A DNA stretch of 64,000 nt from Sediminibacterium sp. C3. GTDB taxonomy: Bacteria > Bacteroidota > Bacteroidia > Chitinophagales > Chitinophagaceae. The notes under the pieces were generated by a model. That model did not search any database and was not told the DNA's origin. It was given only the letters and a program-made list of their open reading frames with translations. Every line of letters starts with the position of its first letter. The stretch's first letter is position 1. The stretch covers positions 898,219-962,218 of the forward strand of contig NZ_KI669560.1 of NCBI RefSeq assembly GCF_000508085.1. Reading direction: 5' to 3'. The position numbers and the translations under genes are program-made. Shown piece by piece: positions 1,633 to 36,245 of this stretch.

Positions 1633-2106
1633 GTTGAGGCGAAATTCGTCAGCTGATTAAAATTGTAACGAATAATAGTTGCTTTTTATTGGTTAATTTT
1701 TAAAGAATGATTTTAGAAGACCTATACTAGCAAGCCTTTAGGCGAAGGCGCCTCAAGCTTGCTTGTGAAACGCCGAAGGCAAAAGGCTTGCATGAAGCTA
1801 AAGAATAAATTTTCTCAAATCGCTGATGTTGGGTGTCGGAAACTACGTAACATAAATGTTTTATCACCCAATGCTATTCAATGTAACCTATCTACTAAAG
1901 CAACAACATAAATTTCTTTTATGTCATTGCTTTAGTAGTACTAGCAGATATAGAACAGTAATTCAGCTGACGAACTCCGGTCGTCAGTTTAGATGGATTA
2001 AATTCAAAGACCTGTTAGACCTTCGCCCAACATTGCATTGATACTATCGGCGAAGCCTACAGTAAACAATTAACTAACTTTAGCCGACAGGATCAATGCT
2101 TCAACG
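1633..2106 (+). repeat. ORF-less structured cassette, copy A
   Basis: The unit starts with GTTGAGGCG and ends in the attC-like site at 2022-2112. It holds two strong foldable segments. One is GCAAGCCTT...AAGGCTTGC (about 1730-1790), enclosing GGCGCC/GGCGTT-type arms. The other is TACTAAAGCAA...TTGCTTTAGTA (about 1890-1940). TTCGTCAGCTGA near the start is inverted as TCAGCTGACGAA near 1964. Bases 1780-2106 are identical by eye to 17885-18211 in copy C. A 61-codon frame (1856-2041) crosses the hairpins and is not credible as a protein. The function may be a structured RNA or a regulatory spacer. Confidence 0.7.
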
Positions 2107-2112
2107 TTACCA
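2022..2112 (+). other. attC-like site closing cassette A
   Basis: R'' is TTCGCCCAAC (2022-2031) and R' is GTTACCA (2106-2112). The arms GCATTGAT and ATCAATGC pair, as do TCGGCGAAGCC and the TTAGCCGA region. R'' is close to the reverse complement of the unit's own start (GTTGAGGCGAA), with one inserted base, so the match is looser than in the protein-coding units. The GTTACCAGC here is the start of the restriction cassette. Confidence 0.65.
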
Positions 2113-2305
2113 GCAAGCGTAAAACGACACGACACAACAGACAGACACGAACTTAAACGAGAAAAAAGTAAACCATTTTGACAGGTGAACATAGACATAA
2201 AAATGATACAACAAACGGACAGCGAGTAAGCCGACACTCATTGCCGACCCTTCTTTGTTTTAATTTTTTTCCCACCGCACAAAATATTTTGAATTGCCAC
2301 CGCAC

Positions 2306-2370
2306 AAATGGCACATTTGGTTTTGCCCCACCCACAAGCCGACCCTTCAGCAAAACCAAAAGAGCCATTT
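2306..2370 (+). ncRNA. Two-stem ACATTT/AAAAGA element, copy 1 (upstream of hsdM)
   Basis: The outer stem is AAATGGC (2306-2312) with GCCATTT (2364-2370). The internal loop is ACATTT (2313-2318) facing AAAAGA (2358-2363). The inner stem is GGTTTTGC (2319-2326) with GCAAAACC (2350-2357). Both stems are perfect, and both differ in sequence from the other five copies while the internal loop is kept. It lies directly upstream of the promoter for hsdM. Whether it acts as RNA or DNA is unknown. Confidence 0.7.
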
Positions 2371-2403
2371 TTTGCCAACGCACCACCGAGAATATTAACT
2401 TTG
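2371..2403 (+). promoter_or_regulatory. Bacteroidota-type promoter for the hsd operon
   Basis: TTTG (2371-2374), a 21-base spacer and TAACTTTG (2396-2403) match the -33 TTTG and -7 TAnnTTTG consensus. Transcription would begin near 2409, giving a leader of about 24 nt before the hsdM ATG. Confidence 0.6.
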
Positions 2404-2432
2404 AAACCTATAAATTGAGATAAAAAGACAAC

Positions 2433-3893
2433 ATGTTCGAACAAACCTTTAAAAACATAGATGATATACTTTACAAGGACGCAGGAGCAGACAGCGAACT
2501 GGACTACATTGAACAAACTTCTTGGGTTTTGTTCTTGCGTTACCTTGACCAATTGGAAAGTGAAAAAGCGGACGAAGCCGCTTTGGAAGGAAAAGAATAT
2601 CAATACATTTTGGACGAGCAATTCCGTTGGCCTAATTGGGCAATGCCTAAAACGGCAGACGGTAAACTTGACCACCACAAAGCCATGACTGGACCTGACT
2701 TGGTTCAGTTTGTAGATTATAAGCTATTCCCCTATTTGGCAGGTTTTAAAGCAAAATCAATTGACAACCCAAAATCCATTGAATATAAAATCGGTGAGAT
2801 TTTCAGTGAACTCAACAACAAAATAAAAAGTGGCTATAATCTTCGTGAGATTATTGAAATGACTGATGAACTGCCTTTCGGCAGTTCTAAAGACAAGCAC
2901 GAACTTAGCCACTTGTATGAAACGAAAATCAAAAACATGGGCAATGCTGGTCGCAATGGCGGACAGTATTACACGCCAAGACCTTTGATTCGTGCCATTA
3001 TTGAAGTGTTGAATCCACAAGTTGGAGAAAAAATTTATGACGCAGCTTGCGGAAGTGCGGGTTTCTTGTGCGAAGCATACGCTTACATGTATGACCGCAT
3101 GGAGAAAAACACTGCCAACCTGAAAACCTTACAGGAAAACACGCTTTACGGAAAAGAGAAAAAGAACTTGGCTTACATCATTGGTGTAATGAATATGATT
3201 TTGCACGGCATTGAAGCCCCAAATATCATTCACACAAATACGCTGACTGAAAACATCAGAGACATTCAGGAAAAAGACCGTTACAATGTTATTCTTGCCA
3301 ATCCACCATTTGGGGGTAAGGAAAGAAAAGAAGTGCAACAAAACTTCGACATCAAAACTGGTGAAACGGCTTCTTTATTCTTACAGCATTTTATAAAGAG
3401 TCTGAAAGCAGGTGGACGAGCAGGTATTGTAATCAAAAACACTTTTTTGAGTAATGCCGATAATGCTTCTGTATCGTTGCGAAAACATTTATTGGAGAGT
3501 TGCAACCTGCACACCATTTTGGATATGCCAGCAGGAACATTCTTGGGTGCAGGAGTTAAAACCGTTGTATTGATTTTTACCAAAGGCGAGCCGACCAAAA
3601 AGATTTGGTATTACCAATGTATTCCGGGCAGAAGTTTGGGCAAAACTTCACCATTGAATGATGATGACTTGAAAGAATTTAAGCAACTGCAAAAAACATT
3701 GGCTGATTCTGACAACTCATGGACAGTTGATATTTCAACCATCAACACCAGCAATTACGATTTGAGTGTGAAAAACCCGAATGGAAAAGTAGAGCAAACT
3801 TTCCGTTCTATGGATGAGATATTGGCAGAGATGGAAGCATTGGACGAAGAAACAAGCGAAATTTTGAACGGAATAAAAGAAATGTTTTCATGA
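2433..3893 (+). CDS. hsdM: Type I restriction-modification system, DNA methyltransferase subunit
   Basis: N6-adenine methyltransferase that partners with HsdS to modify the recognition site and is part of the R2M2S restriction complex. An N-terminal helical HsdM domain (about 1-130) is followed by the Rossmann methylase fold, with the SAM-binding DAACGSAGF motif near residue 203 and the catalytic NPPFGG motif near residue 290. At 486 residues it is of normal length and looks intact. It is the first gene of hsdM-hsdS-rloC-hsdR; its stop overlaps the hsdS start by four bases, indicating translational coupling. The promoter and an ACATTT/AAAAGA element lie just upstream. Confidence 0.95.
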   Translation: MFEQTFKNIDDILYKDAGADSELDYIEQTSWVLFLRYLDQLESEKADEAALEGKEYQYILDEQFRWPNWAMPKTADGKLDHHKAMTGPDLVQFVDYKLFPYLAGFKAKSIDNPKSIEYKIGEIFSELNNKIKSGYNLREIIEMTDELPFGSSKDKHELSHLYETKIKNMGNAGRNGGQYYTPRPLIRAIIEVLNPQVGEKIYDAACGSAGFLCEAYAYMYDRMEKNTANLKTLQENTLYGKEKKNLAYIIGVMNMILHGIEAPNIIHTNTLTENIRDIQEKDRYNVILANPPFGGKERKEVQQNFDIKTGETASLFLQHFIKSLKAGGRAGIVIKNTFLSNADNASVSLRKHLLESCNLHTILDMPAGTFLGAGVKTVVLIFTKGEPTKKIWYYQCIPGRSLGKTSPLNDDDLKEFKQLQKTLADSDNSWTVDISTINTSNYDLSVKNPNGKVEQTFRSMDEILAEMEALDEETSEILNGIKEMFS

Positions 3894-5053
3894 GTCAAGT
3901 TGAACTAACCACTTTAGGAAAATCGTGTGATTTTTTCAATGGGAAAGCCCATGAAAAGAGCATTGACGAAAATGGAAATTACATTGTAGTCAATTCTAAA
4001 TTTATATCATCCGAAGGCAAATCGTTTAAACGCACCAACGAGCAAATGTTTCCTTTATACAAAGGCGATATTGTAATGGTAATGAGTGATGTGCCAAACG
4101 GCAAAGCCTTAGCCAAGTGTTTTATCATTGACAAAGTCGATACCTATTCATTGAACCAGCGTATTTGCTGCATACGAAGCAAGGAATTTGACACCAAATA
4201 TTTGTATTACCAGCTCAACAGAAACGTACACTTTTTGGCTTTCAACAACGGTGAAAACCAAACCAACTTACGGAAAGATGATATTCTTGCTTGCCCATTG
4301 ATTAAGCCTTCAATGGAAGAACAAAAAAGAATGGTTGCCGAATTAGATAATGCATATTCAAAAATTGAATCCGCCATTATTAATGTCGAAGCCAATTTAA
4401 AAAATGCAAAATTTTTATTTGACAATTACTTGTCTTCATTATTCGAAAATAATGAATATCGCTGGGAGCAGAAAAAATTAAAAGATGTTGCAGAATATTT
4501 CAATGGCTTAACATATTCGCCTAAAGATGTCAGTCAGAATGGAACAATTGTCTTAAGGTCATCAAACATTCAAAATGACAAACTTGACTTTGATGATATC
4601 GTCAGAGTTAACACAAAAATTAAAGAAAAGATTTTTGTTCAAGAAGGTGACATCCTTATGTGCAGTCGAAATGGAAGCAAGCATTTAGTTGGAAAAACTG
4701 CACCTATAAACAATCTACATGAAAAAATGACTTTTGGAACTTTCATGATGATTATTAGAAGTGAGTATAATCCATTTTTATTATGGTTCTTTAAAACTGA
4801 CGACTTTAAAAGGCAAATTAGTCAAGGAGAATACAATATGATTAACCAAATCACAAGATATATGCTTGATGATGTTATTGTTTTATTGCCAGAAATTGAA
4901 AAGCAAAAAGAGATAGTAAAAAATTTGAATACTTTGAACGAGCAGGTTTTGAAATTGACATTATTGTATAATAGTAAGATTGAATTGTTAGCAGAACTAA
5001 AATCGGGCATTTTAAAGCGAGCCTTTGAAAACGAATTAATAGAAGCAGAATAA
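3890..5053 (+). CDS. hsdS: Type I restriction-modification system, specificity subunit
   Basis: HsdS sets the DNA target of both methylation and restriction. The 387-residue protein shows the usual two target-recognition domains. The first (about 1-150) is followed by a conserved helix around MEEQKRMVAELDNAYSK. The second (about 195-330) is followed by the parallel helix LPEIEKQKEIVKNLNTLNEQ, giving the pseudo-dimeric spacer architecture. The gene overlaps hsdM by four bases and the next gene by one. The recognition sequence cannot be predicted by eye. It appears complete. Confidence 0.93.
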   Translation: MSQVELTTLGKSCDFFNGKAHEKSIDENGNYIVVNSKFISSEGKSFKRTNEQMFPLYKGDIVMVMSDVPNGKALAKCFIIDKVDTYSLNQRICCIRSKEFDTKYLYYQLNRNVHFLAFNNGENQTNLRKDDILACPLIKPSMEEQKRMVAELDNAYSKIESAIINVEANLKNAKFLFDNYLSSLFENNEYRWEQKKLKDVAEYFNGLTYSPKDVSQNGTIVLRSSNIQNDKLDFDDIVRVNTKIKEKIFVQEGDILMCSRNGSKHLVGKTAPINNLHEKMTFGTFMMIIRSEYNPFLLWFFKTDDFKRQISQGEYNMINQITRYMLDDVIVLLPEIEKQKEIVKNLNTLNEQVLKLTLLYNSKIELLAELKSGILKRAFENELIEAE

Positions 5054-7254
5054 TGATTACCAAAGTTACATTGAATGGCGTTGCTAGTTACAAGAAACCT
5101 GCTGTCTTGGAAACAGACATGAAGGTAAATCTTGTTTATGGTTTAAATGGAACTGGTAAAAGCACTTTTTCTGATTTTCTATATAAACAAACTGAACAAG
5201 ACTTTAAAGCATGCTCTATTGAAGGTCATAATCCTGACGAAGAAATTTTAGTTTACAATCAAACATTCATTCAAGATAACTTTTATCAGCCCGAAACATT
5301 AAAGGGTATTTTTACTTTATCAAAAGAGAACAAGGAAGCAGAAACAAAAATTTTAAATGCAGAAAAGGAAATCAAAAGACTTGATGCTGAAAAAATCCAG
5401 AAAAATGCGGACTTAAAAAAAGAAACTGAAGCTATATCTACAAAGCATGAAAAAGCAAAAGACAAAGTATGGGAAATCAAAAAGAACTATACAGGTGGCG
5501 ACAGAGTATTAGAATTTTGTCTTGAAGGCTATAGAAATGATGGTAATAAGTTATTGAGCTACATTGAAAGCTTAAAAAAGTCCGATAATAAACCAACAAA
5601 AACAACTGACAATATAAAGGAAGAAGTTCAAGCTCTATCAGGGGAAAATGCTCAAAAGTATTTTACACTCGAACCAATTGCTTTTGATGTCGCTGAAATC
5701 GAAACGGAACAAATTTTTAAGAAGCAGATTGTTGGTAATGAAAATAGCACGGTTTCGGGTTTAATTAATAAACTTGAAAATTCTGATTGGGTAAAAGACG
5801 GATTAAAATACTTACCAACACAAATTGAAACTGAAAATGAAACCTGTCCTTTCTGTCAGGAACAAACAATTTCAAGTCAATTGCTTCAAAGCATCAAAGA
5901 ATATTTTGACGAATCGTATGAAGCAGACTTAACAGCTATTAAGGAATTTCGCAAACAATACGCAGAAGCCATTCAGTTAATTCCCGATAAATCAACTTTT
6001 GAAAGTAATCCGAAGTTTGAAAATCATAAAAAGGACTTTGAAATCAAATACAACGCATTTACCAAAGTTGTAACAGAAAACTTAAAGCTGATTGATGATA
6101 AAATAAAAACTCCAAGCGTTCAAATCACTTTGAAAAGTTCTGTTACTGCATTGACTGATATTAATGGAGTAATTGACAACATCAATAAGCAGGTAAAAGA
6201 ACACAACAAAAAAATTGACCAAAAGGAAACAGCCTTAAACGACCTGAAAACTGATTTTTGGAATATTATGCGTTGGGAGTATGACCAAACTATAAGTTCA
6301 TACATTTCCGATAAATCGCAATCACAAAAAATCGTTTCTGGATTAAAACAGGCAATTGAAAAACTGGATTCAGACATTCAGAAGCAAAGAGAAATAATTG
6401 TTGAACAGCAAAAGCAGACCGTAAATATTGAAGTAGCAATTGCAAACATCAATAACGGACTTTTAGACCTTGGGATTCACGATTTCAAAATAAAACAACA
6501 CGCTGATAATCTTTACAAAATTTTTCGTGAGCAAAATGACAATAGAGTTTTTCTTTCACTAAGTGAAGGAGAAAAAATGATTATTAGCTTTTTGTATTTC
6601 TTGGAACTATGCAGGGGAAAGAAAGATGCCACAGAAGCTGCAAAGAAGAAAATCATTGTAATTGACGACCCTATTTCCAGTCTTTCACATGTTTATGTTT
6701 TCAATGTTGGCAGATTGATTAAAAATGAGTTTTTCGGTAAAAAAGAAAAGAAGAATGGTTTTACAACTTGGAACTACAAGTATGAGCAAGTCTTTGTTTT
6801 AACACACAGTCTTTACTTTTTCTATGAAATAACCGAAACCAAACATGATGAAAGAAAAGAGACTCAAAAGCTTTTCAGGCTAATTAAAAATGATGAAGGC
6901 AGTTACTTTGAAAAACTGACTTATGAATCAATTAAAAATGACTATCAGGCTTATTGGTATGTGATAAAAGACCAAAATCAGCATCCTGCATTAATAGCCA
7001 ATTGCATGAGAAATATAATTGAGTATTTCTTCAATTTCATAGAGAACAAAGACCTAAATAATTTTTTCAATCAACCTACTATGCAGGAAATTCGCTTTCA
7101 GGCATTTTATAGATATATCAATAGGGAATCACATTCCTTAGGTCAGAATATTTTTGATTTTAAAGAGTTCAACTACCAAGACTTTAAAGATGCTTTTGCA
7201 GAACTTTTCAAAGTTGCAGGTTACGAAGAACATTATAAGAAAATGATTGCATGA
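5053..7254 (+). CDS. rloC: RloC/PrrC-like AAA ATPase, probable anticodon nuclease
   Basis: This is a 733-residue SMC-like ATPase. Walker A is GLNGTGKST (30-38). Long charged helices flank a CPFC zinc-hook-type motif (265-268). An ABC-signature-like SLSEGEK segment lies near residue 505, followed by Walker B VIDDPISSLSH. The C-terminus carries R-x3-E (RNIIE) and, about 37 residues later, a histidine (NRESH). These resemble the Arg-Glu-His triad of PrrC/RloC anticodon nucleases. The position between hsdS and hsdR is that of prrC in the E. coli prr locus, where the nuclease cuts tRNA when a phage disables restriction. The hook and length favour RloC over PrrC. The nuclease role is inferred and other AAA_13 proteins remain possible. 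Confidence 0.75.
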   Translation: MITKVTLNGVASYKKPAVLETDMKVNLVYGLNGTGKSTFSDFLYKQTEQDFKACSIEGHNPDEEILVYNQTFIQDNFYQPETLKGIFTLSKENKEAETKILNAEKEIKRLDAEKIQKNADLKKETEAISTKHEKAKDKVWEIKKNYTGGDRVLEFCLEGYRNDGNKLLSYIESLKKSDNKPTKTTDNIKEEVQALSGENAQKYFTLEPIAFDVAEIETEQIFKKQIVGNENSTVSGLINKLENSDWVKDGLKYLPTQIETENETCPFCQEQTISSQLLQSIKEYFDESYEADLTAIKEFRKQYAEAIQLIPDKSTFESNPKFENHKKDFEIKYNAFTKVVTENLKLIDDKIKTPSVQITLKSSVTALTDINGVIDNINKQVKEHNKKIDQKETALNDLKTDFWNIMRWEYDQTISSYISDKSQSQKIVSGLKQAIEKLDSDIQKQREIIVEQQKQTVNIEVAIANINNGLLDLGIHDFKIKQHADNLYKIFREQNDNRVFLSLSEGEKMIISFLYFLELCRGKKDATEAAKKKIIVIDDPISSLSHVYVFNVGRLIKNEFFGKKEKKNGFTTWNYKYEQVFVLTHSLYFFYEITETKHDERKETQKLFRLIKNDEGSYFEKLTYESIKNDYQAYWYVIKDQNQHPALIANCMRNIIEYFFNFIENKDLNNFFNQPTMQEIRFQAFYRYINRESHSLGQNIFDFKEFNYQDFKDAFAELFKVAGYEEHYKKMIA

Positions 7255-9635
7255 ACGAAACCGAAACAAGAGCAGAATATATTGACCCTGCATTAAAAGC
7301 AGCAGGTTGGGGCGTTGTGGAAGGCAGTCGCATTCGCATGGAGTTTCCCATCAACAAAGGTCGTTTAATCGGGCATGGACAGCGTAGTAAGCCCGACAAG
7401 GCAGATTATGTATTGCAATACAAAAACAGAAACCTTGCAGTAATTGAAGCCAAAGCAAGAGATAAATATTATACCGAAGGCGTTGGTCAAGCCAAAGACT
7501 ATGCAGGAAAATTGCAGGTTCGTTTTACATACAGCACCAACGGTTTACAGATTTACCGCATAGACATGCAAGAAGGACAGGAAGGTGACGTAACTTCCTA
7601 TCCTACTCCAGACGAATTGTGGGAAATGACTTTTGGAGAACAAAACAAACTCCAACCACTTTCAGCCGTTTGGCGAGACAAATTACTTTCTGTTCCGTTT
7701 GAAGACCGTGGCGGAACGTGGCAACCAAGATACTATCAGGAAAATGCCATAACCAAAGTTTTAGAAGCCGTTGCCAACGACCAACAACGCATTTTATTAA
7801 CCCTTGCCACAGGAACAGGAAAAACGGCAATTGCTTTTCAAATTGCATGGAAACTTTTTCAGGCAAAATGGAACATCAACAAAGACGGACAACGAAGCCC
7901 AAGAATTTTATTCTTAGCCGATAGAAATATTTTAGCAGACCAAGCATTCAACGCCTTTTCAGTTTTTGAAGAAGATGCTTTGGTTCGTATCAATCCAAGC
8001 GACATCAAGAAAAAAGGCAGAGTTCCGAAAAACGGAAGTGTGTTTTTTACCATTTTCCAAACCTTTATGAGTGGGCCAAATGATACGCCCTACTTTGGAG
8101 AATATCCTAAAGACTTTTTTGATTTCATTATTATTGACGAGTGCCACCGTGGTGGAGCCAATGACGAAAGCAGTTGGCGAGCTATTATGGAATATTTCAG
8201 TCCAGCCGTTCAGTTAGGTTTGACAGCTACACCAAAACGAACCATAAACGCAGACACTTACAATTATTTTGGTGAGCCGGTTTATGTGTATTCGCTGAAA
8301 GAAGGAATCAATGACGGTTTCTTAACGCCTTTCAAAGTCAAACAAATTGACACCACTATTGACGAGTATTTATTCACTTCGGATGACACTGTTTTAGAAG
8401 GAGAAATTGAAGAAGGTAAACGTTACACCGAAGCGGAAATGAACCGTATAATTGAGATTAAAGAACGTGAAGAATATCGGGTAAAGATTTTCATGAGCCT
8501 GATAAATCAAAGCGAAAAAACTTTGGTTTTCTGTGCCACTCAATTACATGCTTTGGCAATTCGTGATTTAATCAATCAATATGCAGAAACGAATAATCCG
8601 AACTATTGCCACCGAGTTACAGCACATGACGGAAAATTAGGCGAACAACATTTAAGAGATTTTCAGGACAATGAGAAAAGCATTCCAACCATACTGACCA
8701 CTTCGCAGAAGTTAAGCACAGGTGTTGATGCTCCCGAAGTGAGAAACATTGTTTTGCTTCGTCCTGTGAACTCCATGATTGAGTTTAAACAAATCATTGG
8801 ACGTGGAACACGTTTGTTTGATGGTAAAGACTATTTCACGATTTACGACTTTGTAAAAGCACATCATCATTTCAGCGACCCTGAATGGGACGGAGAACCC
8901 GAAGAACCTGAAACACCCACACCAAGACCACAGCCACAAACTTGTGATGTTTGCGGACATAGACCTTGTATTTGTGCCCAAGAACCACCACCAGAACCTT
9001 GTCCTGTTTGTGGTTACTCTTATTGCCGTTGCGACAATCCACCAAGGCGAATGGTAAAAGTGAAATTGGCAGACGGTAAAGTGCGACAGTTTCAGCACAT
9101 GGTCAGCACTTCGTTTTACAGTCCTGACGGCAGACCGATTTCAGCAGAAGAATTTTTGCAATCACTTTTCGGAACATTGCCCGAACTCTTCAAAAGTGAA
9201 GATGAATTAAGAACTATTTGGAGCAAACCCGACACAAGAAAAAAGCTGTTAGAAGAACTGACTGAAAAAGGTTTTGCCAAACAACAGTTGACAGAGTTTC
9301 AAAAAATATTGAACGCTGAAAATAGCGACCTTTATGATGTTTTGGCTTATATCGCTTTCCATTCCGACATTTTAGAACGAACAGACAGAGCAGACCGAGC
9401 AAAAATTCACTTGGACAACTACGACCCAAAACAGCAAGAGTTTTTAAACTTCGTTTTGAGCCAGTATGTAAAACAAGGCGTTGAAGAATTGGACGACACG
9501 AAAATTGGCGACTTGCTTGTTTTGAAATATCACGCAATTGCAGATGCTAAAAAAGTACTTGGCGACATTGCAACAATCAGAAACACGTTTATCGGTTTCC
9601 AGACTTATTTGTATGACAAAAGAGTAGCGATATGA
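7251..9635 (+). CDS. hsdR: Type I restriction-modification system, restriction/translocase subunit
   Basis: HsdR translocates DNA and cleaves unmodified targets. An N-terminal PD-(D/E)xK-like nuclease segment lies near residues 50-75 (AVIEAKA, then QAKDYA). A superfamily 2 helicase core follows, with ATGTGKT near 185, DECH near 296 and LTATPKR, and then a C-terminal HsdM-contact region of EcoEI type. Near residues 563-593 there are two tandem C-x2-C-x4-C-x-C clusters separated by a proline-rich linker, which would fit metal-binding knuckles. At 794 residues it is shorter than the EcoR124 subunit but usual for EcoEI-type proteins. The start overlaps the preceding gene by four bases. Confidence 0.93.
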   Translation: MNETETRAEYIDPALKAAGWGVVEGSRIRMEFPINKGRLIGHGQRSKPDKADYVLQYKNRNLAVIEAKARDKYYTEGVGQAKDYAGKLQVRFTYSTNGLQIYRIDMQEGQEGDVTSYPTPDELWEMTFGEQNKLQPLSAVWRDKLLSVPFEDRGGTWQPRYYQENAITKVLEAVANDQQRILLTLATGTGKTAIAFQIAWKLFQAKWNINKDGQRSPRILFLADRNILADQAFNAFSVFEEDALVRINPSDIKKKGRVPKNGSVFFTIFQTFMSGPNDTPYFGEYPKDFFDFIIIDECHRGGANDESSWRAIMEYFSPAVQLGLTATPKRTINADTYNYFGEPVYVYSLKEGINDGFLTPFKVKQIDTTIDEYLFTSDDTVLEGEIEEGKRYTEAEMNRIIEIKEREEYRVKIFMSLINQSEKTLVFCATQLHALAIRDLINQYAETNNPNYCHRVTAHDGKLGEQHLRDFQDNEKSIPTILTTSQKLSTGVDAPEVRNIVLLRPVNSMIEFKQIIGRGTRLFDGKDYFTIYDFVKAHHHFSDPEWDGEPEEPETPTPRPQPQTCDVCGHRPCICAQEPPPEPCPVCGYSYCRCDNPPRRMVKVKLADGKVRQFQHMVSTSFYSPDGRPISAEEFLQSLFGTLPELFKSEDELRTIWSKPDTRKKLLEELTEKGFAKQQLTEFQKILNAENSDLYDVLAYIAFHSDILERTDRADRAKIHLDNYDPKQQEFLNFVLSQYVKQGVEELDDTKIGDLLVLKYHAIADAKKVLGDIATIRNTFIGFQTYLYDKRVAI

Positions 9636-9666
9636 CAAAGACAACGAACATATCAGCCAACCCTTC

Positions 9667-9735: not shown

Positions 9736-9874
9736 CCCAATGCAAGAGAAAATTCAAAATATTTTTTCCCACCCTTCTAAAAAAATTAAAACACCCGACA
9801 CGCAAACCAACCCGACAAAGACAGTGAAACTCAACAACGACAATGGTTTACAGACACAGTGGACAAGAACGCCA

Positions 9875-27931: not shown

Positions 27932-27938
27932 TAAGGCA

Positions 27939-28061: not shown

Positions 28062-28079
28062 GCAAACAACATTGTAAAA

Positions 28080-28670
28080 ATGTTTGGAAGTGATTTAGGT
28101 AAAAGCAAATTTCAGGAAAATGTAAATTTAATTGCTTCTTTGAAAGATAAAATTGAATCTCAATTAGCCTATTTTAAAAATAAGATTGAAAGCCAATCTA
28201 GTAATGATAGTTCGGAGATTTATAAAGATTTTCTGTCGAATACGGAATCCGTTTCTTCTATATTTACAAAAATTGGGAAATATCCTGATGACTACTTTTC
28301 AGGGATGAACAGTGCGGATTGGTTTGGAGTTTGGGCTGTTATTCAGTCTAATATCTATACTGTTCAGGGCATCGGTCATTCTGCATTTGTTCAACTACAG
28401 ATGTTTGAAAATTTTAGTAAACAAGAGATTGACGACCTTACAAAAGAGATTATAAAATACATTCCAAAATCTTACCATATTGAAGATGCTATTCAATACA
28501 AACAAGAGTATATGACAACTTTAGCTCAAATGGAAGAAGAAGCGAATAAAAAAGATAATCTTTGGGATCGTTTTTTAAATTTATTAGCGGGAAATATCCC
28601 ATTCAAGCAGACTCCGCAGGAACGTGTAATGATGATGCGATGGGTAAATGGTGAGAAAGGCGAACTTTAA
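28080..28670 (+). CDS. Hypothetical soluble protein
   Basis: A 196-residue cytoplasmic protein without signal peptide or transmembrane segment. It has a helical, lysine/glutamate-rich N-terminus (about 10-60), then an aromatic central segment (DWFGVWAVIQSNIY near 80-93) and a helical C-terminus. I do not recognise the family. It lies in the efflux operon, 11 bases before the TetR gene. Confidence 0.6.
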   Translation: MFGSDLGKSKFQENVNLIASLKDKIESQLAYFKNKIESQSSNDSSEIYKDFLSNTESVSSIFTKIGKYPDDYFSGMNSADWFGVWAVIQSNIYTVQGIGHSAFVQLQMFENFSKQEIDDLTKEIIKYIPKSYHIEDAIQYKQEYMTTLAQMEEEANKKDNLWDRFLNLLAGNIPFKQTPQERVMMMRWVNGEKGEL

Positions 28671-28681
28671 AAAGAGAAAAA

Positions 28682-29275
28682 ATGACAACAGAAACAATTT
28701 CTGACAGACAACTTGAAATTATAGAAGCAGCAGGAAAAATATTGACTGCTTCGGGAATAAGCGGTTTAACAATAAAGAACCTTGCTAAGGAAATGAAATT
28801 TTCTGAGAGTGCCATTTACAGGCATTTTACAAGCAAGGAAGAAATCATTATTGCCTTACTTGAATATCTTGCTCAAAGTATGGATGAACGCTATACCAAT
28901 GCAATTTCAAGCGAACATTCACCCGAAGAAAAATTTACAACGCTATTTCAAGATCAATTTTCATTTTTTAATAAGCATCCGCATTTTGTAGTGGCAGTTT
29001 TTTCTGACGGATTAATGGAAGAAAGCCAACGCATCAACGAAACCATACTGAAAATAATGGCTGTAAAAATGAAACATTTGATGCCAATTATTTTGGAAGG
29101 ACAACAAAAGAAGGTATTCACAAATTCAATAACATCCGATGAATTGATACATTTCGTGATGGGAACTTTTCGATTGCAAATGTTTAAATGGCGGGTTGCC
29201 AATTTTCAATTTGACATAAACAGAAACGGAGATAATATGATTCAAGCATTATTAACACTTATAAAATCCAAATGA
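28682..29275 (+). CDS. TetR/AcrR-family regulator
   Basis: A 197-residue repressor. The N-terminal helix-turn-helix (about 8-55; LTIKNLAKEMKFSESAIYRHF) is classical TetR and the C-terminal domain should bind an inducing ligand. As it is encoded in the efflux operon it probably autoregulates through the AGTGAATATTCACT palindrome at 26999. It overlaps the next gene by four bases; three ATGA-type overlaps (29272, 29670, 30128) show tight coupling. Confidence 0.9.
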   Translation: MTTETISDRQLEIIEAAGKILTASGISGLTIKNLAKEMKFSESAIYRHFTSKEEIIIALLEYLAQSMDERYTNAISSEHSPEEKFTTLFQDQFSFFNKHPHFVVAVFSDGLMEESQRINETILKIMAVKMKHLMPIILEGQQKKVFTNSITSDELIHFVMGTFRLQMFKWRVANFQFDINRNGDNMIQALLTLIKSK

Positions 29276-29673
29276 AAAAGTATGTCCTCTCTACATCAGC
29301 AGTAATTCTGACTGCCTTTGGCTTGATTACTCTTTTCCTAAGCACATCAGTGATATTTGATTTGTTTGGCATCAGAGCCAAAGAAGGCAATTATGTTCTG
29401 TTTGTGGTTTGGTCAAATTTCATAAGTAGCATTCTTTATCTGCTTGCTGCTTATGGGTTTACTAAAAGCAAAAAATGGACGAGTACACTCTTAGGAATTT
29501 CAACAATTATACTAATCGCTGCATTTATCGGACTCAAAATACACGCTAATTCGGGTGGTATTTATGAAACGAAAACAATCGGTGCAATGATTTTCAGAAT
29601 TCCGGTAACGCTTGTATTTGCAATCATTGCATTTTTCACTATCAATAAACAATTAAATAAAACAAGGGAATGA
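29272..29673 (+). CDS. Small membrane protein in the efflux operon
   Basis: A 133-residue protein with four hydrophobic helices (about 5-28, 40-62, 70-88, 104-126). No motif is recognised. It overlaps both neighbours by four bases. Possible roles are an accessory of the efflux pump or of a membrane stress response; this is only inferred from context. Confidence 0.65.
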   Translation: MKKYVLSTSAVILTAFGLITLFLSTSVIFDLFGIRAKEGNYVLFVVWSNFISSILYLLAAYGFTKSKKWTSTLLGISTIILIAAFIGLKIHANSGGIYETKTIGAMIFRIPVTLVFAIIAFFTINKQLNKTRE

Positions 29674-30131
29674 ATAAATTAATCCTATCACTGGCTGCTT
29701 TTAGCATTATGTTATCTAGCTGTAGCAATTCCACAAACGAGAAATCAAATAATCAAACAGAAATTGCCGAACAAAATAATCATCATCTCGATGATGAAAG
29801 CGAAGCGATTGAACTCAACAATGGAGAAAAATGGAAAGTTGATGCCAATATGATAACACATATTCGCAATATGGAAAATGATATTAATCACTTCGCTAAT
29901 GTTGAGCAAAAAGACTTCAAATCATTAGCTGAAAAACTACAAACCAATATTGATTTACTTACATCTAATTGCACAATGAAAGGCAAAGCACACGATGAAC
30001 TTCATAAGTGGCTTTTGCCATACATTGATATGGTAAAGGAACTTTCAGAAGCTAAAAACGAAACCGAAGCATCAGAGCAGTTTAAAAACATACAAACTTC
30101 ATTTTCAACATTTAACCAATATTTCCAATGA
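29670..30131 (+). CDS. Lipoprotein in the efflux operon
   Basis: A 153-residue lipoprotein: signal peptide with lipobox MLSSC near residue 18, an Asn/Glu/His-rich linker (EQNNHHLDDESE) and a helical domain with HIRNMENDINHF and CTMKGKAHDELHKWL. The histidines and one cysteine could bind metal. No named family is recognised. It overlaps both neighbours by four bases. Confidence 0.7.
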   Translation: MNKLILSLAAFSIMLSSCSNSTNEKSNNQTEIAEQNNHHLDDESEAIELNNGEKWKVDANMITHIRNMENDINHFANVEQKDFKSLAEKLQTNIDLLTSNCTMKGKAHDELHKWLLPYIDMVKELSEAKNETEASEQFKNIQTSFSTFNQYFQ

Positions 30132-30415
30132 AAATAAAAGAATTACATACACAAGAAAAACCAGTTTCAGCAACTTCTCTTTTCAAAAGTGACCTGGGCA
30201 ATGCAACAGCTATCCAAATTTTGAAAGGCGAGAAATTAAAAGAGCATATCACCAAAACACCAGCACTTTTGATTTGCGTGGAAGGAGAAGTGATTTTTGA
30301 AAATGAAAAAGGGATAATGGAAACACTATTGTCAGGTGACTTTATAAATATTGAACCAATGGTAAAACATTGGGTTGTAGGAACAATTGAAAGTCAATTA
30401 ATACTCATTAAGTAA
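30128..30415 (+). CDS. Small cupin-fold protein
   Basis: A 95-residue single-domain protein with the cupin pattern: KGEKLKEHITKTPALLICVEGEVIFE, then LLSGDFINIEPMVKHWV. The usual first metal motif (GxxxxxHxH) is reduced to one histidine (LKEHIT), so metal binding is uncertain. It may bind a small ligand. It is translationally coupled to the lipoprotein gene and lies 13 bases before tolC. Confidence 0.75.
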   Translation: MKIKELHTQEKPVSATSLFKSDLGNATAIQILKGEKLKEHITKTPALLICVEGEVIFENEKGIMETLLSGDFINIEPMVKHWVVGTIESQLILIK

Positions 30416-30428
30416 AAAAATTTGACCA

Positions 30429-31763
30429 ATGAAGTTAGCGAATATTCACAAACATTATTATGTTCTATTATTGATAATAGGAGGCTTTCAATCCGCACAA
30501 GCACAAACTTGGACTTTGCAACAATGTATTGATACAGCACAGGTTCACAATAAAAACCTGCAAATGAGCAGAAACAATATGGCCATTGGTGAACAAAGAG
30601 AGAAAGAAGCCAAAGCCAATTTAATTCCTAAAGTTACAGCAAATGCAGACTACAGATATTACTATAATTTACCCTATCAACTGCTTCCAATAAATGCTTT
30701 TAATCCAGCAGTTCCAGAAGGTCAATATAGAGCAATTCAGTTTGGAGTTCCGCATAACATCAACGCCAATTTGCAACTATCAATGCCTTTGTATAATCCA
30801 CAAGTTTATGGAGCCATACAAACTACTAAAATTGCTTCGGAATTGACAGACTTGCAGTATCAAAAAACGGAGGAGCAAATCTATTTTGAAATCTCCAATT
30901 TGTATTACAATGCCCAAATCTTGCACCACCAATTGGCATTTATTGACAGTAATTTGATTAACGCAGAAAGGCTTCTGAAAAATATGCAATTGCTCAATGA
31001 ACAATTGCTTGTCAAAGGAACAGATGTAAGCAAGGTAAAATTACAAGTATCACAATTAACCACCCAAAAGGAAACCATCAAAAGCAAATACGAGCAGGTT
31101 CTAAATGCCTTGAAATTTGCTATGGGTATTTCTATTGAACAAAATCTGCAAATTGAAGCAAACATTCAATATCAAAACACAAATGAATACACATCTTCAT
31201 CAACCTTAGATATTCGAATAATAAAAACTCAAAACCGCTTATTGTCGAGTGAACTCAACACACTCAATAAATCAAGGTATTTGCCTTCACTAAATCTTGT
31301 TAGTATGTATGGAACAACGGGCTTTGGTTATAACGGACAACCTGCTTCTTTCCTTGATTTTTATCCAATTGGTTTTGCAGGTGTTCAATTATCTTATCCA
31401 TTATTTAATGGAACAGTTACACTGCGAAAAATAAATCAGAAAACGCTTGAACTTCGAAACAATGAACTTCAATTTGGAATGCTTACTGAGCAAAACAATA
31501 TGCAGGTTGAAAATGCCAAACTTCAAAGAGAAGTCGCTAAAAGAACGGTAGAAACCACAACAGAACAAATCCAATTGGCACAAACAATCTACGAGCAAAC
31601 CGTTCTTCAACAGAAACAAGGAACGGCAAGTTTAACAGATGTTTTGCTTGCAGATAATGCTTTGCGTGAAGCACAACAAACTTATTTATCTGCTGTAATT
31701 GATTACCTAAAAGCAGATTTGGAACTAAAAAAACTCACAGGAAATATTTCAATAATCAAATAA
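30429..31763 (+). CDS. TolC-family outer membrane efflux channel
   Basis: A 444-residue outer membrane factor with a signal peptide (cleavage after AQA near residue 26) and two copies of the OEP repeat, each with long coiled helices (AIGEQREKEAKANLIPKV; then TVETTTEQIQLAQTIYEQ). It supplies the outer membrane exit duct for the RND pump encoded next. The C-terminus is intact. The gene is eight bases from the fusion-protein gene. Confidence 0.92.
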   Translation: MKLANIHKHYYVLLLIIGGFQSAQAQTWTLQQCIDTAQVHNKNLQMSRNNMAIGEQREKEAKANLIPKVTANADYRYYYNLPYQLLPINAFNPAVPEGQYRAIQFGVPHNINANLQLSMPLYNPQVYGAIQTTKIASELTDLQYQKTEEQIYFEISNLYYNAQILHHQLAFIDSNLINAERLLKNMQLLNEQLLVKGTDVSKVKLQVSQLTTQKETIKSKYEQVLNALKFAMGISIEQNLQIEANIQYQNTNEYTSSSTLDIRIIKTQNRLLSSELNTLNKSRYLPSLNLVSMYGTTGFGYNGQPASFLDFYPIGFAGVQLSYPLFNGTVTLRKINQKTLELRNNELQFGMLTEQNNMQVENAKLQREVAKRTVETTTEQIQLAQTIYEQTVLQQKQGTASLTDVLLADNALREAQQTYLSAVIDYLKADLELKKLTGNISIIK

Positions 31764-31771
31764 TTATCACA

Positions 31772-32842
31772 ATGAATACAAAATCATCAGTCCTAAAAAA
31801 AGCACTCTACGTCATCATACCATTGGCGATAATTGCAATTGTGGTAATTAAGTTGAAAACAAACAAGGAAATTACGCAGAGTAAAGTTTTTCAATACGAT
31901 AAAGAACAAGCTATAAATGTTCAAGTAGATACATTGCAACTTGAAAATGTGAATGCAGATTTTTCTTATTCAGGCACATTTGAGCCCAACAAGGAAACCA
32001 AAATAAGTGCCGAATTACAAGGGAAAATCAACACCATTTTAGTTGATGCTGGAAGCGTTGTAAGTAAAGGTCAAACTTTAATTCAGCTGGACAATTCATT
32101 GCTGAAATTGCAACTGCAAACTATTGAAGTGCAAATAGAAGGATTGGAAGCAGATGTAAACCGCTATACCATTTTAGCTAAAGCAGATGCCATTCAAGGA
32201 GTTCAATTAGAAAAGGCGGAGTTAGGTTTGAAATCTGCAAAAGTTCAGAAAACAACTTTGTTGGAGCAGATAAACAAAACCACAATCAAAGCACCATTTA
32301 ACGGAGTTGTTACTGCAAAATTAAGTGAAGAAGGAGCTTTTGCTGCACCGGGCGTTCCATTGCTCCAAATAACGGACATTACAACTTTAAAATTCACCGT
32401 AAATGTTCCCGAAAAAGATTTAAGCCAGTTCAAATTAAATCAAAGCTATTCTCTTTCGGCAGATGCTTATTCTGAAATTCTATTGACTGGAAAAACTACT
32501 ATGATTGGTAGTAAAGCCAATATGGGCAGTAGTTTTCCTGTTCAGTTTACGGTAAATAACACATCGGACTTGAAAATAAAATCAGGAATGTTTGGTAAAG
32601 TGTTACTCAAAAGCAAATTGCCTGAAAAGGGAATTATCATACCATCATCAGCTATACAAGGAACTGAAAACCAACCGCAAGTTTACGTAGTGAAAAATGG
32701 CAAAGCCCTTTTGCAAAACATCACTATTTCAAATAAGCTACAAAACAAAGCGATTGTTGCAAGTGGATTAAATGAAGGTGATGTGATTGTAACGAATGGC
32801 TTCATCAATCTTTTTGATGGGGCAAATGTAACTGTTAAATAA
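31772..32842 (+). CDS. RND efflux periplasmic adaptor (membrane fusion protein)
   Basis: A 356-residue HlyD/AcrA-type adaptor. An N-terminal membrane anchor (about 10-28) is followed by a beta-barrel/lipoyl half-motif (ISAELQGKINTILVDAGSVVSKGQTL). Then come a short helical hairpin, the second lipoyl half (TIKAPFNGVVTAKLSEEGAFAAPG) and the membrane-proximal domain. It links the pump to TolC. The helical hairpin is short, as in MexC/CusB-like adaptors. Part of a tolC-MFP-RND operon. Confidence 0.93.
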   Translation: MNTKSSVLKKALYVIIPLAIIAIVVIKLKTNKEITQSKVFQYDKEQAINVQVDTLQLENVNADFSYSGTFEPNKETKISAELQGKINTILVDAGSVVSKGQTLIQLDNSLLKLQLQTIEVQIEGLEADVNRYTILAKADAIQGVQLEKAELGLKSAKVQKTTLLEQINKTTIKAPFNGVVTAKLSEEGAFAAPGVPLLQITDITTLKFTVNVPEKDLSQFKLNQSYSLSADAYSEILLTGKTTMIGSKANMGSSFPVQFTVNNTSDLKIKSGMFGKVLLKSKLPEKGIIIPSSAIQGTENQPQVYVVKNGKALLQNITISNKLQNKAIVASGLNEGDVIVTNGFINLFDGANVTVK

Positions 32843-32854
32843 AATCAGCGAAAA

Positions 32855-35800
32855 ATGAACATTACAGAAATTTCAATCAAACGACCTTCGCTGATAATAG
32901 TGCTGTTCAGCGTATTTACTTTATTAGGTTTTATAGGGTATAAAAATTTGAGTTATGAATTAATGCCCGACTTTAATCAGCCAGTAGTTGTAATTAAAAC
33001 TGTTTACCCTGGTGCCGAACCAAACGAAGTAGAAACTTCCGTTTCACGAAAAATCGAAGATGCTTTATCGAATTTAGAAGGTGTAGATTACTTGGTTACA
33101 AAGTCATTACCCAATGCTTCTATCATCATCGCCAATCTGAACTATGGAACAGATTTGGACAAATCAATGCAAGACGCACAACGCTATCTTGATAATATTC
33201 GACAAGATTTACCGGACGAGATCTTGAGTCCTGTAATGAGCAAAGTTTCGCCCAATGATTTACCGATAATGTCTATTAGTGCAACAAGCGATTTGTCAGC
33301 CACCGAGTTTTATCAAAAAATGAAGGATGATTATTTGCCACAAATTCAACAAATAAAAGGTGTTGCAGAGATTACTGTTTTAGGTGGAGAGGTAAGAGAA
33401 ATACATGTAAAAATAAATCAAGACAAACTGAAATTGTATAAAATTTCAATGGTTCAGGTTGTTGAAGCAATTAATCGTTCTGGCTTAGACTTACCTGCCG
33501 GAAAGGTGCAAACCGATAAGGAAAGTAATTCAGTTCGTTTAACGGGAAAATTTGCATCTATTGAGGATATTAAAAATGTCCAAGTTGCTATGCCTGTTTT
33601 AGGAAGTCCAGTTTATGTAAAAGACATAGCAGATGTTATAGATGGCGTAAAGGAAACAACTTCTATCAGTCGCTACAATGGTAAAAACGGCATTGGTTTA
33701 ATGCTGAAAAAACAAGGAGATGCAAATGCAGTAGATGTTTCAAAAGCCGTTCGAGAAAAATTTCAATCCATCGAACAACAAAATGCCAGTTCGGGTGTAA
33801 AAATTATAATTGCAGACGATAGCACCGATAACACGATTGCAGCCGTAAACTCCGTTGTTTTCGATTTAATCTTAGCGGTGTTATTGGTTTCGTTGGTAAT
33901 GCTTTTATTTCTAAGAGGTTTTAGAAATTCCTTAATCGTATTGGTAGCTATTCCAACTTCTTTAGTTACTGCCTTTGCTGTAATGTGGCTTTTGGGTTAC
34001 ACCTTAAACTTAATGACCTTGCTTGCAATGTCTTTAATCATAGGTATTTTGGTAGATGACGCTACCGTAGTTTTAGAAAACATTCAAAAGCATTTAGACA
34101 GAGGAAAAGACAAACAAACGGCTGCAATGGATGGCAGAATGGAAATTGGCTTTGCTGCTTTATCCATCACCTTAGTTGACGTTGTAGTTTTCTTGCCCAT
34201 TCTTTTTCTTCAAGTGTTTGTTGCTGATATGCTCAAGCAATTTTCGGTTGTTGTAGTAACTTCTACTCTCACCAGTTTATTGGTTGGTTTTACTTTAACG
34301 CCATGGATGGCTTCTCGTATTGGCAAAAAAGAAGACTTACAACCTACCAATTTTTTCAATCGCTTTTTACTATGGTTCGAAATTCAATTAGAAAACTTTA
34401 ATGAATGGTATGGTCGCAGATTAGAATGGGTATTGAGCCATAAATTAGCTTTTACAGGTATCGTTATTGTGCTTTTTGTAATGACTTTAGGCATTATGAA
34501 ACAAGGTATTATTGGTAAAGAATTAATTTCAACAGGCGACCAAGGAAAATTTAGAATGGCATTAGAATTTGATAAATCTACCTCCATTCAACAAAACAAC
34601 TTAATTGCTCAAAAAATTGAAAAATACATTATTCAACAACCCGAAGTTGCAACGGTATTCAGTAACATTGGCGGACCAAGCACAGGCATTGGAAGTTTGG
34701 GTGTTGGTTCTGCAAACAAAACAGAATTTACCATTCAATTAAAATCTAAAAAGGAACTTAAAAATGTGCCGACCGAAACATTTATGAAAAAACTTAGAGA
34801 AGACCTAAAGTTAAAATTTCCAAGTATAAATTATTCAATGGCAGCTTTAGGTTTAATACCTCGTTCGGCTCCTATTGAAATTACATTGAGCGGAAGCAAT
34901 TTAGATTTGGTGATGAAAACGGGTGATGAATTGAAATCGGTAATTGAAAAAATTCCCGGAGCAGATAATGTTCGCTTGTCCGTTGAAGCAGGTAGTCCCG
35001 AATACAAAATAATTCCAGACAAAGATAAAATGCAACGATTAGGTTTAACAACCGCTTATGTTGGATTGAACCTAAGAACTGCATTTACAGGTAATGAAGA
35101 TGCAACGCTTACTGAGAACGGAACAGAATATCCTGTAAGAATTTGGTTAGACGAATTTAACCGACAAAACTTTGAAGATGTTCAACAACTTTCGATCATT
35201 AACCCAATGGGAATACCAGTTGAAGTTTCACAGTTTGCAAGCGTAGAGCAAGACAATTCTCCGTCATTGTTAGAACGAAAAGACCGACAACCAGCAGTTA
35301 CTTTAACAGCAGACGCATTAGGCAGACCATCAGGAACTGTAGCAGACGATGTTGTTGCTTATCTAAAAGAAAATCCATTGCCAAACGGCATACAAATGAC
35401 TTGGGGTAGCGACATCAAAAGACAGAATGATAGTTTTGGAGCATTGGGTTCCGTTTTACTCATTTCATTTTTGCTGATTTACTTGATTATGGTAGCACTG
35501 TATGACAGCTTTGTTTATCCATTTGTGGTATTGTTTTCTATACCAGTTGCAGCAATTGGTGCGTTTTTCGCTTTGAATTTGTCATTAAGTAATTTGAGTT
35601 TATTTGCCTTATTGGGTTTAATTATGCTAATGGGTTTAGTGGTAAAAAACGCTATTCTAATTGTGGATTTTACTAATCAATTAAAAGCAGAAGGTAAACA
35701 TTTCAAAGAAGCCTTAATCATAGCAGGAAAAGGACGTATGCGACCAATCCTAATGACAACTCTTTCAATGGTAGTTGGTATGCTTCCTATTGCAATGGCA

Positions 35801-35947
35801 ACAGGAACAGCAGCAGAATGGAAAAACGGACTTGCTTGGGTTATAATTGGCGGACTTCTTTCATCTTTAATTTTGACTGTGTTTTTAGTGCCTATGGTCT
35901 ATTATTTAGTTGACACAGCGAAAGAAAAAATAAACAGAAGAAAATAG
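32855..35947 (+). CDS. RND-family efflux permease (AcrB/HAE1-like)
   Basis: A 1,030-residue proton-driven inner membrane pump with 12 transmembrane helices and two large periplasmic loops. Helix 4 has the proton-relay GILVDDATVVLEN, and helix 10 region reads GLVVKNAILIVDF. The sequence is full length. The class (multidrug HAE1 rather than metal HME) is suggested by GLVVKNAIL and the absence of metal-pump motifs; the substrate is unknown. It is the last gene of the roughly 9.6-kb cassette; an ACATTT/AAAAGA element begins 11 bases after the stop. Confidence 0.94.
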   Translation: MNITEISIKRPSLIIVLFSVFTLLGFIGYKNLSYELMPDFNQPVVVIKTVYPGAEPNEVETSVSRKIEDALSNLEGVDYLVTKSLPNASIIIANLNYGTDLDKSMQDAQRYLDNIRQDLPDEILSPVMSKVSPNDLPIMSISATSDLSATEFYQKMKDDYLPQIQQIKGVAEITVLGGEVREIHVKINQDKLKLYKISMVQVVEAINRSGLDLPAGKVQTDKESNSVRLTGKFASIEDIKNVQVAMPVLGSPVYVKDIADVIDGVKETTSISRYNGKNGIGLMLKKQGDANAVDVSKAVREKFQSIEQQNASSGVKIIIADDSTDNTIAAVNSVVFDLILAVLLVSLVMLLFLRGFRNSLIVLVAIPTSLVTAFAVMWLLGYTLNLMTLLAMSLIIGILVDDATVVLENIQKHLDRGKDKQTAAMDGRMEIGFAALSITLVDVVVFLPILFLQVFVADMLKQFSVVVVTSTLTSLLVGFTLTPWMASRIGKKEDLQPTNFFNRFLLWFEIQLENFNEWYGRRLEWVLSHKLAFTGIVIVLFVMTLGIMKQGIIGKELISTGDQGKFRMALEFDKSTSIQQNNLIAQKIEKYIIQQPEVATVFSNIGGPSTGIGSLGVGSANKTEFTIQLKSKKELKNVPTETFMKKLREDLKLKFPSINYSMAALGLIPRSAPIEITLSGSNLDLVMKTGDELKSVIEKIPGADNVRLSVEAGSPEYKIIPDKDKMQRLGLTTAYVGLNLRTAFTGNEDATLTENGTEYPVRIWLDEFNRQNFEDVQQLSIINPMGIPVEVSQFASVEQDNSPSLLERKDRQPAVTLTADALGRPSGTVADDVVAYLKENPLPNGIQMTWGSDIKRQNDSFGALGSVLLISFLLIYLIMVALYDSFVYPFVVLFSIPVAAIGAFFALNLSLSNLSLFALLGLIMLMGLVVKNAILIVDFTNQLKAEGKHFKEALIIAGKGRMRPILMTTLSMVVGMLPIAMATGTAAEWKNGLAWVIIGGLLSSLILTVFLVPMVYYLVDTAKEKINRRK

Positions 35948-35957
35948 CCATCGCACA

Positions 35958-36024
35958 GGTGTAAGCACATTTGCAATTCGCACAAGCCAACGCACAGTCC
36001 AAAAATTGCAAAAGAGCTTACACC
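35958..36024 (+). ncRNA. Two-stem ACATTT/AAAAGA element, copy 6 (downstream of the efflux operon)
   Basis: The outer stem is GGTGTAAGC (35958-35966) with GCTTACACC (36016-36024). The internal loop is ACATTT (35967-35972) and AAAAGA (36010-36015). The inner stem is GCAATT/AATTGC. The apical loop CGCACAAGCCAACGCACAG matches copy 2. The T/A-rich CCCTTCT tract follows (36045-36085). Together with copy 5 it brackets the efflux operon. Confidence 0.72.
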
Positions 36025-36185
36025 TTTACCACCCAAAGAAAAATTATTTTTTAAAATTTCCTTCCCTTCTAAAATTTTTAAAACCGCTACCCACAGCCGA
36101 CACAAACAGACCCATTCGCAACTCGACAATGACAGCGAAACTCACAGCGGACAAGGACTTTACAACCTCGACAGACAGAAGGCCA

Positions 36186-36245
36186 GCTTATAACATGAAC
36201 TGTGCAGTACATAAAAATGCACCTATTTTTTGTAACTTGAACATG
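36186..36245 (+). other. Terminal attC-like site, right end of the array
   Basis: R'' GCTTATAAC (36186-36194) is the exact complement of the intron-split cassette start GTTATAAGC (24749-24750 plus 26633-26639). It continues ATGAACTGTGC as in the site at 16336. No clear R' GTT box or second arm is seen, so the site is probably truncated here, which fits the end of the array. Confidence 0.62.

Follow-up and report, generated by a model that had tools for sequence, protein, structure and literature searches.

An integron-like cassette array in Sediminibacterium sp. C3 and its probable relation to a family of Xer-like integrases lacking the additional domain of IntI

The stretch of 64,000 nucleotides (nt) of Sediminibacterium sp. 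C3 analyzed here (contig NZ_KI669560.1, positions 898,219 to 962,218; hereafter, the window) carries an array of gene units arranged head to tail from position 1633 to about 36200. In this study, we report that this is very probably an integron-like array, the cassettes of which would be taken up and released in folded single-stranded form by a family of Xer-like integrases that lack the additional domain (I2) of the integron integrase IntI. A sequence-only reading of the window had attributed the island to an integron-type recombinase, and as judged from the sequence this proposal holds.

Eight pairs of unit starts and ends had been proposed to match reciprocally, and all of them were found in the sequence. 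The match extends beyond the common GTT/AAC and is specific to each unit, reaching 9, 10, 9, 10, 9, 10, 10, and 9 bases (GTT/AAC included), whereas the 56 mismatched pairings of starts and ends agree over 6 bases at most (mean, 3.6). The pairs stand, with their AAC ends placed at 9883, 10839, 11742, 16345, 19108, 19809, 24629, and 36194. In the last of them the start had been given as two positions (24749 and 26633), a split explained by a group II intron of 1,882 base pairs (bp) inside the GTT; a second copy of this intron splits the site at 11895. The inner bases agree only within a unit and vary among units, which argues against shared terminal repeats. Units beyond those eight exist, including three non-coding copies of a 473-bp unit (at 1633, 13779, and 17744). 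A strict scan, with a 9-base match and a strong stem, retained four of the eight units, and the four lost were those hit by introns, insertion sequences (IS) or a truncated end. A reciprocity scan with a weak stem was not discriminating (31 rows for GTT and 6 to 55 for twelve other trinucleotides), and the criteria were therefore tightened to a stronger stem with a C before GTT, under which the real window gave 6 rows against a total of 3 in 20 shuffled windows. A stem scan relying on the outermost AAC/GTT arms alone was rejected, since real sites were missed.

The anatomy of the site was defined on 110 distinct units from 24 array sources, retained from 115 candidates. Three candidates were excluded for a non-purine after GTT (G208:523, G399:9541, and 19942 on the minus strand of L087, the strand opposite its integrase), one by hand as a chance pairing (G208:11966, with a match of 11) and one as a duplicate. 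The box reads G T T R [CGT] N N G Y M A, in short GTTRNNNGYMA, with G at position 8 in 105 and A at position 11 in 108 of the 110 units; the purine at position 4 is imposed by the filter and the C at position −1 by construction, and first cassettes after the attI-like site lie outside this set. The integron core GTTRRRY fits 7 of the 110 units and GTTRNNNRY fits 98. End-to-end pairing halts at 9 bases in 37 units and at 10 bases in 73, a match longer than 10 being absent from the 110 units as retained, and in 61 of the 73 ten-base units the halt is an A-C mismatch at position 11. Past the mismatch, positions 12–14 of the ten-base units pair in 82% of cases vs. 40% with shuffled partners (maximum of 50% in 1000 shuffles); in the 37 nine-base units the resumed pairing is weaker (50–54% vs. 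25–26%). This resumption is best understood if the two ends are brought together, which excision as a circle would do.

Of 17 stem pairs, 13 showed compensatory changes, and this held for the 118-nt as well as the 182-nt hairpin class. When the circle junctions of the 110 units were rejoined, the bottom strand folded better in 87, the top strand in 11, and the two lay within 0.5 kcal/mol in 12, with a mean difference of 2.9 kcal/mol between strands; junctions made of a unit's own ends reached −36.0 kcal/mol vs. −27.2 kcal/mol for swapped ends. This bottom-strand bias is seen by fold energy only. Since an A-C mismatch of the top strand is a G-T wobble in the bottom strand, the mismatches may mark the strand and may thus do, by analogy, the work that extrahelical bases do in attC.

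A covariance model (R1) based on 14 hairpins, all of the 118-nt class, also detects the 152-, 182-, and 80-nt classes. Run unfiltered over the whole 64-kb window, R1 gave ten plus-strand matches, all within 2029–24751, four weak minus-strand matches mirroring the array hairpins, and none in the 36–64 kb portion; the palindromes therefore lie at the array and not at random places, in agreement with the earlier claim. Rfam at its gathering thresholds gave no attC-type match in the window. Across 22 loci, 67 of 70 R1 matches lie on the array strand, the remaining three being two mirror images and one match upstream of the integrase in L072. The longest open reading frame runs on the array strand in 99 of the 110 units and on the opposite strand in 2, and is lacking in 9; eight of the 110 units are of 3 kb or more (3–8.3 kb). 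In the integrase-bearing regions 107 of 107 candidate units share the strand of the integrase, a count that predates the final two exclusions from the candidate set. In the loci for which about 10 kb upstream were also covered, 14 of 14 units lie downstream of the integrase (manual count). A folded site at the 3′ end and a single cassette orientation, as in integrons, are thus both present.

With respect to the recombinase, no integrase had been noticed in the window, a statement that must be corrected: positions 1383–1494 (plus strand, frame 3) encode IKDLLRHFDITTTERYLHVSKK, a decayed C-terminal fragment that matches the C-termini of intact integrases (L016 and L017). Two intact relatives of this remnant, of 341 and 315 amino acids and 94% alike, head two other arrays of the same genome. 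The suggestion that the integrase acts in trans or has since been lost fits what the sequence offers on both counts, a decayed local copy and two intact family members elsewhere. The genome contains 11 PF00589 matches, nine of them above the cut-off, and a search of the whole genome for IntI gave none above its cut-off. The catalytic residues R, K, H-R, H, and Y are all retained in the integrase. Its scores stay below the cut-offs of the curated models, with 183 vs. 265 bits for the integron integrase, 173 vs. 335 for XerC and 165 vs. 330 for XerD; the best curated match is the archaeal XerA model, also below its cut-off (206 vs. 220 bits). The insertion typical of IntI, which reads LHEKDL...WRWQWVFP in the first IntI rows, is missing in each of the five aligned rows of the new family, so that the additional domain required of an integron integrase is lacking. 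The earlier suspicion of a divergent recombinase is borne out by that absence and by the score of 183 vs. 265 bits. By sequence, the closest solved relatives are an XerC-like protein, XerA, and IntI4. In the tree the new integrases form one group (99/90) and IntI a separate one (100/99); the sister relation was left undrawn because the outgroup consisted of two Xer proteins of the same genome with long branches. An AlphaFold model of the integrase was too poor to be used (mean predicted local distance difference test, 70; predicted template modeling score, 0.37).

Among the 120 homologues listed, 92 have 370 amino acids or more, with an N-terminal extension absent from the copies of this genome. 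In two homologues the extension gave a weak DUF5710-like match, below the cut-off; one locus with such a long homologue is L079 (9668–10879). Directly behind the integrase there is a gene for a single-strand-binding protein (SSB; Pfam SSB) in L066 (937–1302) and in L079 (10911–11261), and L070 has the same reading frame at about 6352–6745. An SSB gene beside the integrase fits a single-stranded substrate.

A core like TAGCGTATATTTAAGT|GTT, followed by variable sequence, was recognized by eye in 19 of 26 loci compared, at 102–237 bp past the integrase stop; in the window it lies 138 bp past the remnant, at 1615–1635 (plus strand), where GTAGCGTATATTTAGGT precedes the GTT at which the first cassette starts, as placed from the by-eye core, the alignment, and a weight-matrix check. 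The 19 sites were chosen before alignment, and their conserved GTT is therefore conserved by choice. The weight matrix, trained on these 19 sites and run as a check, found a site farther downstream in L066, L073, L075, and L087 (19–29 bits) and one, of 21 bits, at an integrase-less array (Z); in L070 the contig ends before any attI-like site. An attI-like site is thus present as a sequence feature. Between integrase and attI, the leader contains some three direct repeats resembling ACAATACAAAATGTATAA (L016 8801–8984 and L017 12402–12604, both on the minus strand, and relatives), which are possible arm sites of the integrase. In L016, TTTG-N19-TATATTTA resembles the Bacteroidota promoter consensus, and it would fire into the first cassette.

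Additional arrays of the same genome repeat this organization. Reciprocal arrays near C4:1-9 kb and at C4:2.878-2.912 Mb each lie directly downstream of an integrase and on its strand, the arrays with intact integrases being those of L016 and L017; a third reciprocal array, at C4:2.366-2.372 Mb, has no PF00589 match nearby. The 473-bp unit at 1633–2105 has four further copies, 95–100% identical, in three other arrays of the genome, a single one in L016, a tandem pair in L017 (the second with a short gap), and one in L044. All end at GTT and most have different flanks, an attI-like site here and in L016 and other hairpins elsewhere. It is the most copied cassette, rich in inverted repeats and the first after the attI-like site in the window, L016, and L044, and it may carry a promoter or a structured RNA. 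When the units were compared by BLAST, most of the 330 non-self matches shared the hairpin alone, and at least 14 (reciprocal matches counted) covered a whole unit and stopped at both of its ends. The unit at 19229–19961 recurs over its whole length with 95.7% identity in L089, where it is the first cassette to follow the attI-like site, and unit L064:12785 recurs at 95.3% in array X of the present genome. Whole units are also repeated, with a 471-bp unit present four times in G399 and one of 761–772 bp three times in L087. Rearranged junctions at GTT, which the sequence-only reading had asked for, are therefore seen as whole cassettes that recur elsewhere with their ends exactly at GTT.

The integrase occurs in 28 loci of named genomes, including Sediminibacterium and other Chitinophagaceae, and the succession of integrase, attI-like site, and array is repeated in several genomes of Chitinophagales. 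In 198 genomes of this order, the integrase (E ≤ 1e-60) was found in 61 and R1 hairpins in 128; 48 genomes had both, 13 the integrase only, 80 the hairpins only and 57 neither (Fisher p 0.006). Among the 32 genomes with the closest integrases, a set picked after the E-values had been seen, 31 have hairpins, compared with 97 of the remaining 166 (p 5e-6). Integrases more divergent than these, or arrays without one, may account for the hairpins found beyond the close integrase. Several contigs (L068, L069, L070, L078, L081, and L085) stop no more than about 600 bp past the integrase match, as though assemblies were broken by the repeated hairpins, and arrays may thus be undercounted. Single hairpins were also seen on plasmids of Myroides and Flavobacterium (L177 4001–4116 and L178 2995–3124; four records), a possible route between hosts. 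As regards true IntI, a match above the cut-off was present in 70 of the 247 genomes sampled from the phylum and in one of 61 sampled members of the class, G053, which has no R1 hairpin.

In the mechanism that we propose, the excised circle would bring the two boxes together as a stem of 9–10 bp, and the integrase would bind the folded bottom strand and cross over at GTT with attI. The bottom strand would be the favored one because the conserved A-C mismatch of the top strand is a G-T wobble below. The local integrase is decayed, and any present mobility would therefore depend on the two intact copies acting in trans. More broadly, we regard it as likely that Chitinophagales harbor a second integron class, with an Xer-like integrase lacking I2, sometimes with its own SSB gene, and with folded single-stranded sites bearing an A-C/G-T mismatch code; it would probably reach plasmids of Flavobacteriaceae, and its capture of folded sites would have arisen independently of I2 or before it.

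Several observations weigh against the integron-like reading. Recombination is read from sequence alone. The 473-bp units match imperfectly at their own ends, and with ends not joined the strand asymmetry is weak, the bottom strand folding better in 19 and the top in 10 of 31. The location of all units downstream of the integrase is partly due to the direction in which the regions were retrieved. At the attI-like site, the 14.8 bits of L079 do not exceed the top score among ten background blocks (16.2), a value that two of the 19 training sites do not reach either; of 14 further regions, in which the integrases are more distant, five reach 20 bits (one being the same locus as L080) and the site is weak or absent in nine. 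Hairpins spread wider than the close integrase, with the 80 hairpin-only genomes mentioned above and with 13 of 61 integrase-bearing genomes having no hairpin match. Finally, passages of PMC7790495 report that the IntI helix is necessary for cassette capture, so that an enzyme without I2 needs another read-out.

Other explanations must be weighed against the same data. The host dimer-resolution enzymes XerC and XerD might recombine the cassettes, with the array-linked integrase a mere passenger: the genome has Xer-like genes of its own (L001, L003), Xer enzymes are borrowed by phages according to passages of PMC7790495, and 80 genomes carry hairpins with no integrase at E ≤ 1e-60. We consider this very unlikely, as the integrase heads arrays that start at a conserved attI-like site, is accompanied by hairpins in 31 of 32 genomes with a close copy, and shares its strand with 107 of 107 candidate units. 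A true IntI, ancestral or transferred and since replaced or lost, could also have built the arrays, and its frequency in the phylum (the 70 of 247 genomes given above) is in favor of this; it is less credible still when set against its lack above the cut-off in this genome, its single occurrence in the class (1/61, in G053, without R1 hairpin) and the fit of only 7 of 110 boxes to GTTRRRY.

That the units are transposons or elements like miniature inverted-repeat transposable elements, and the matching ends their terminal inverted repeats, ranks lower again. Unit ends are indeed inverted repeats and the 473-bp unit is multicopy; yet the repeats of a transposon family are shared by its members and here the inner bases match only within a unit, the units run head to tail in one orientation with neighbors sharing one site, and those of the window have no transposase of their own, the inserted IS110-family element aside. 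We give least credit of all, and almost none, to the hairpins being transcription terminators between ordinary operons with the end match as a by-product. Their position at the 3′ ends of gene units would suit it, but each hairpin matches the start of its own unit, at the far end and as much as 7.9 kb away, and the recurrence elsewhere of whole units bounded at GTT already contradicts it. The integron-like reading thus remains the one that we prefer.

The organization of the island is as follows, all features lying on the plus strand unless indicated. It starts beside a tRNA gene (940–1011; Rfam RF00005), and a tRNA is found shortly before three of the four arrays of the genome (also L017 14205–14279, Met, and L044 945–1029, Leu). 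Unit 1 is the 473-bp non-coding cassette already described (1633–2105; hairpin 2029–2108, an R1 match), with copies in other arrays that end at GTT. Unit 2 (2106–10004; attC-like site 9875–10007) is a type I restriction cassette with HsdM, HsdS, an AAA_13/PDC-S06-like protein, and HsdR, and unit 3 (10005–10958; attC-like site 10830–10961) encodes an Fe/Mn superoxide dismutase. Unit 4 (10959–11896) has a Gp49-like/helix-turn-helix pair, toxin-antitoxin-like, and an attC-like site at 11734–11896 that is split by the intron at 11897–13778, inserted in the core site as CGT^T. Unit 5 (13779–14243; hairpin 14166–14246, R1 match) is a diverged copy (79%) of the 473-bp cassette. Unit 6 (14244–16360) carries an AbiLi/AbiLii-like pair (AAA ATPase and RloB); its left box ends at 16345 and its hairpin is broken by an IS110-family transposase (16383–17378, minus strand; Pfam PF01548 and PF02371). 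A remnant unit 7 is represented by its hairpin (17621–17746; R1 match of 74.5 bits), followed by unit 8, the third copy (91%) of the 473-bp cassette (17744–18210; hairpin 18134–18213). Unit 9 (18211–19228; attC-like site 19100–19231) is a CAAX/Rce1-like protease cassette, unit 10 (19229–19961; attC-like site 19800–19964) a small-protein cassette, and unit 11 (19962–24750; attC-like site 24621–24750) holds NmrA, DoxX, LigB, and DsbA genes. The second intron copy (24751–26632), also in CGT^T, precedes unit 12 (26633–36245), with ferritin, TetR, and resistance-nodulation-division efflux genes (OEP, HlyD, AcrB). Between 26633 and 36194 this unit shows its left box (36186–36194), and the right half or a complete hairpin was not recognizable. 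Outside the island, a cobalamin riboswitch lies at 43305–43509 on the minus strand.

One group II intron is present in seven copies in array regions of this genome (window 11897–13778 and 24751–26632; L017; L016; C4 at about 3.18 and 3.217 Mb), and all six copies with a visible 5′ exon lie in CGT^T in the direction of the cassettes. The IS110-family element in the hairpin of unit 6 (16383–17378) represents, besides the intron, another type of element for which these sites may be a target. In addition, an IS91-type transposase (annotated so in L177) and a small tyrosine recombinase occur among the arrays (L017 7093–9064 and L016 6239–8212), and the pair is also found at L177 1904–3759, beside the single hairpin on the Myroides plasmid.

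If the integron-like reading is true, capture of cassettes with folded sites exists without I2, and a wide reservoir of cassette arrays is added, with hairpins in 128 of the 198 sampled genomes of the order; the genes carried in the window include restriction, abortive-infection-like, efflux, and stress functions. According to passages of PMC7790495, recombination of single strands is conferred by I2, which is found in no other protein, and its causal role lacks direct proof because its deletion kills IntI1; a natural cassette system with an I2-less integrase would make that question testable. In PMC3053210, as far as its passages go, the I2 helix touches the extrahelical base G20″. Bacteroidota are named among the phyla with integrons in a passage of PMC8618304, and the passages of PMC8352920 give 11 taxon models of attC, with none for Bacteroidota among those that they mention. 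The surveys of PMC2426708, PMC9024848, and PMC9668308, in the parts consulted, select on the additional domain or stress it, and would thus likely pass over an I2-less system by design. A literature search, made without preprints and most subscription journals, gave no description of an I2-less cassette system in the passages retrieved. The closest case is an "integron-like" subgroup of PMC8138268, in which the insertion is not fully conserved, yet is called essential for integron function; unlike here, cassette arrays are not described in its passages for the members lacking I2.

Compared with XerC, XerD, and XerA, the integrase has the same domain plan and XerA is its best curated model; it differs in falling below all three cut-offs and in being tied to cassette arrays. 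The introns resemble group IIC-attC introns in targeting the core of a folded cassette site, at CGT/T here and at TTGT/T in the passages of PMC7923331; unlike those, they run in the cassette direction and lie in the right-hand box. Lacking a working integrase beside it, the array of the window is like a cluster of attC sites lacking integrases (CALIN); it departs from one in retaining an attI-like site and an integrase remnant and in that its sites are not standard attC. With integrons, including sedentary chromosomal ones, it shares a tyrosine recombinase with a site beside it, head-to-tail cassettes in one orientation, a folded 3′ site, end reciprocity, a bottom-strand fold bias, and parasitic group II introns at the core site. 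It differs from them in an integrase that has no IntI additional domain, stays below the family cut-off, and reads in the direction of the array, in a box of GTTRNNNGYMA instead of GTTRRRY, in a strand asymmetry arising from A-C/G-T mismatches, and in that eight of the 110 units measure 3–8.3 kb. Because two defining features, the additional domain and the core, were tested and found wanting, the accepted definition of an integron excludes it. By its sequence features, the array is one that would work like an integron and that stands outside that definition.

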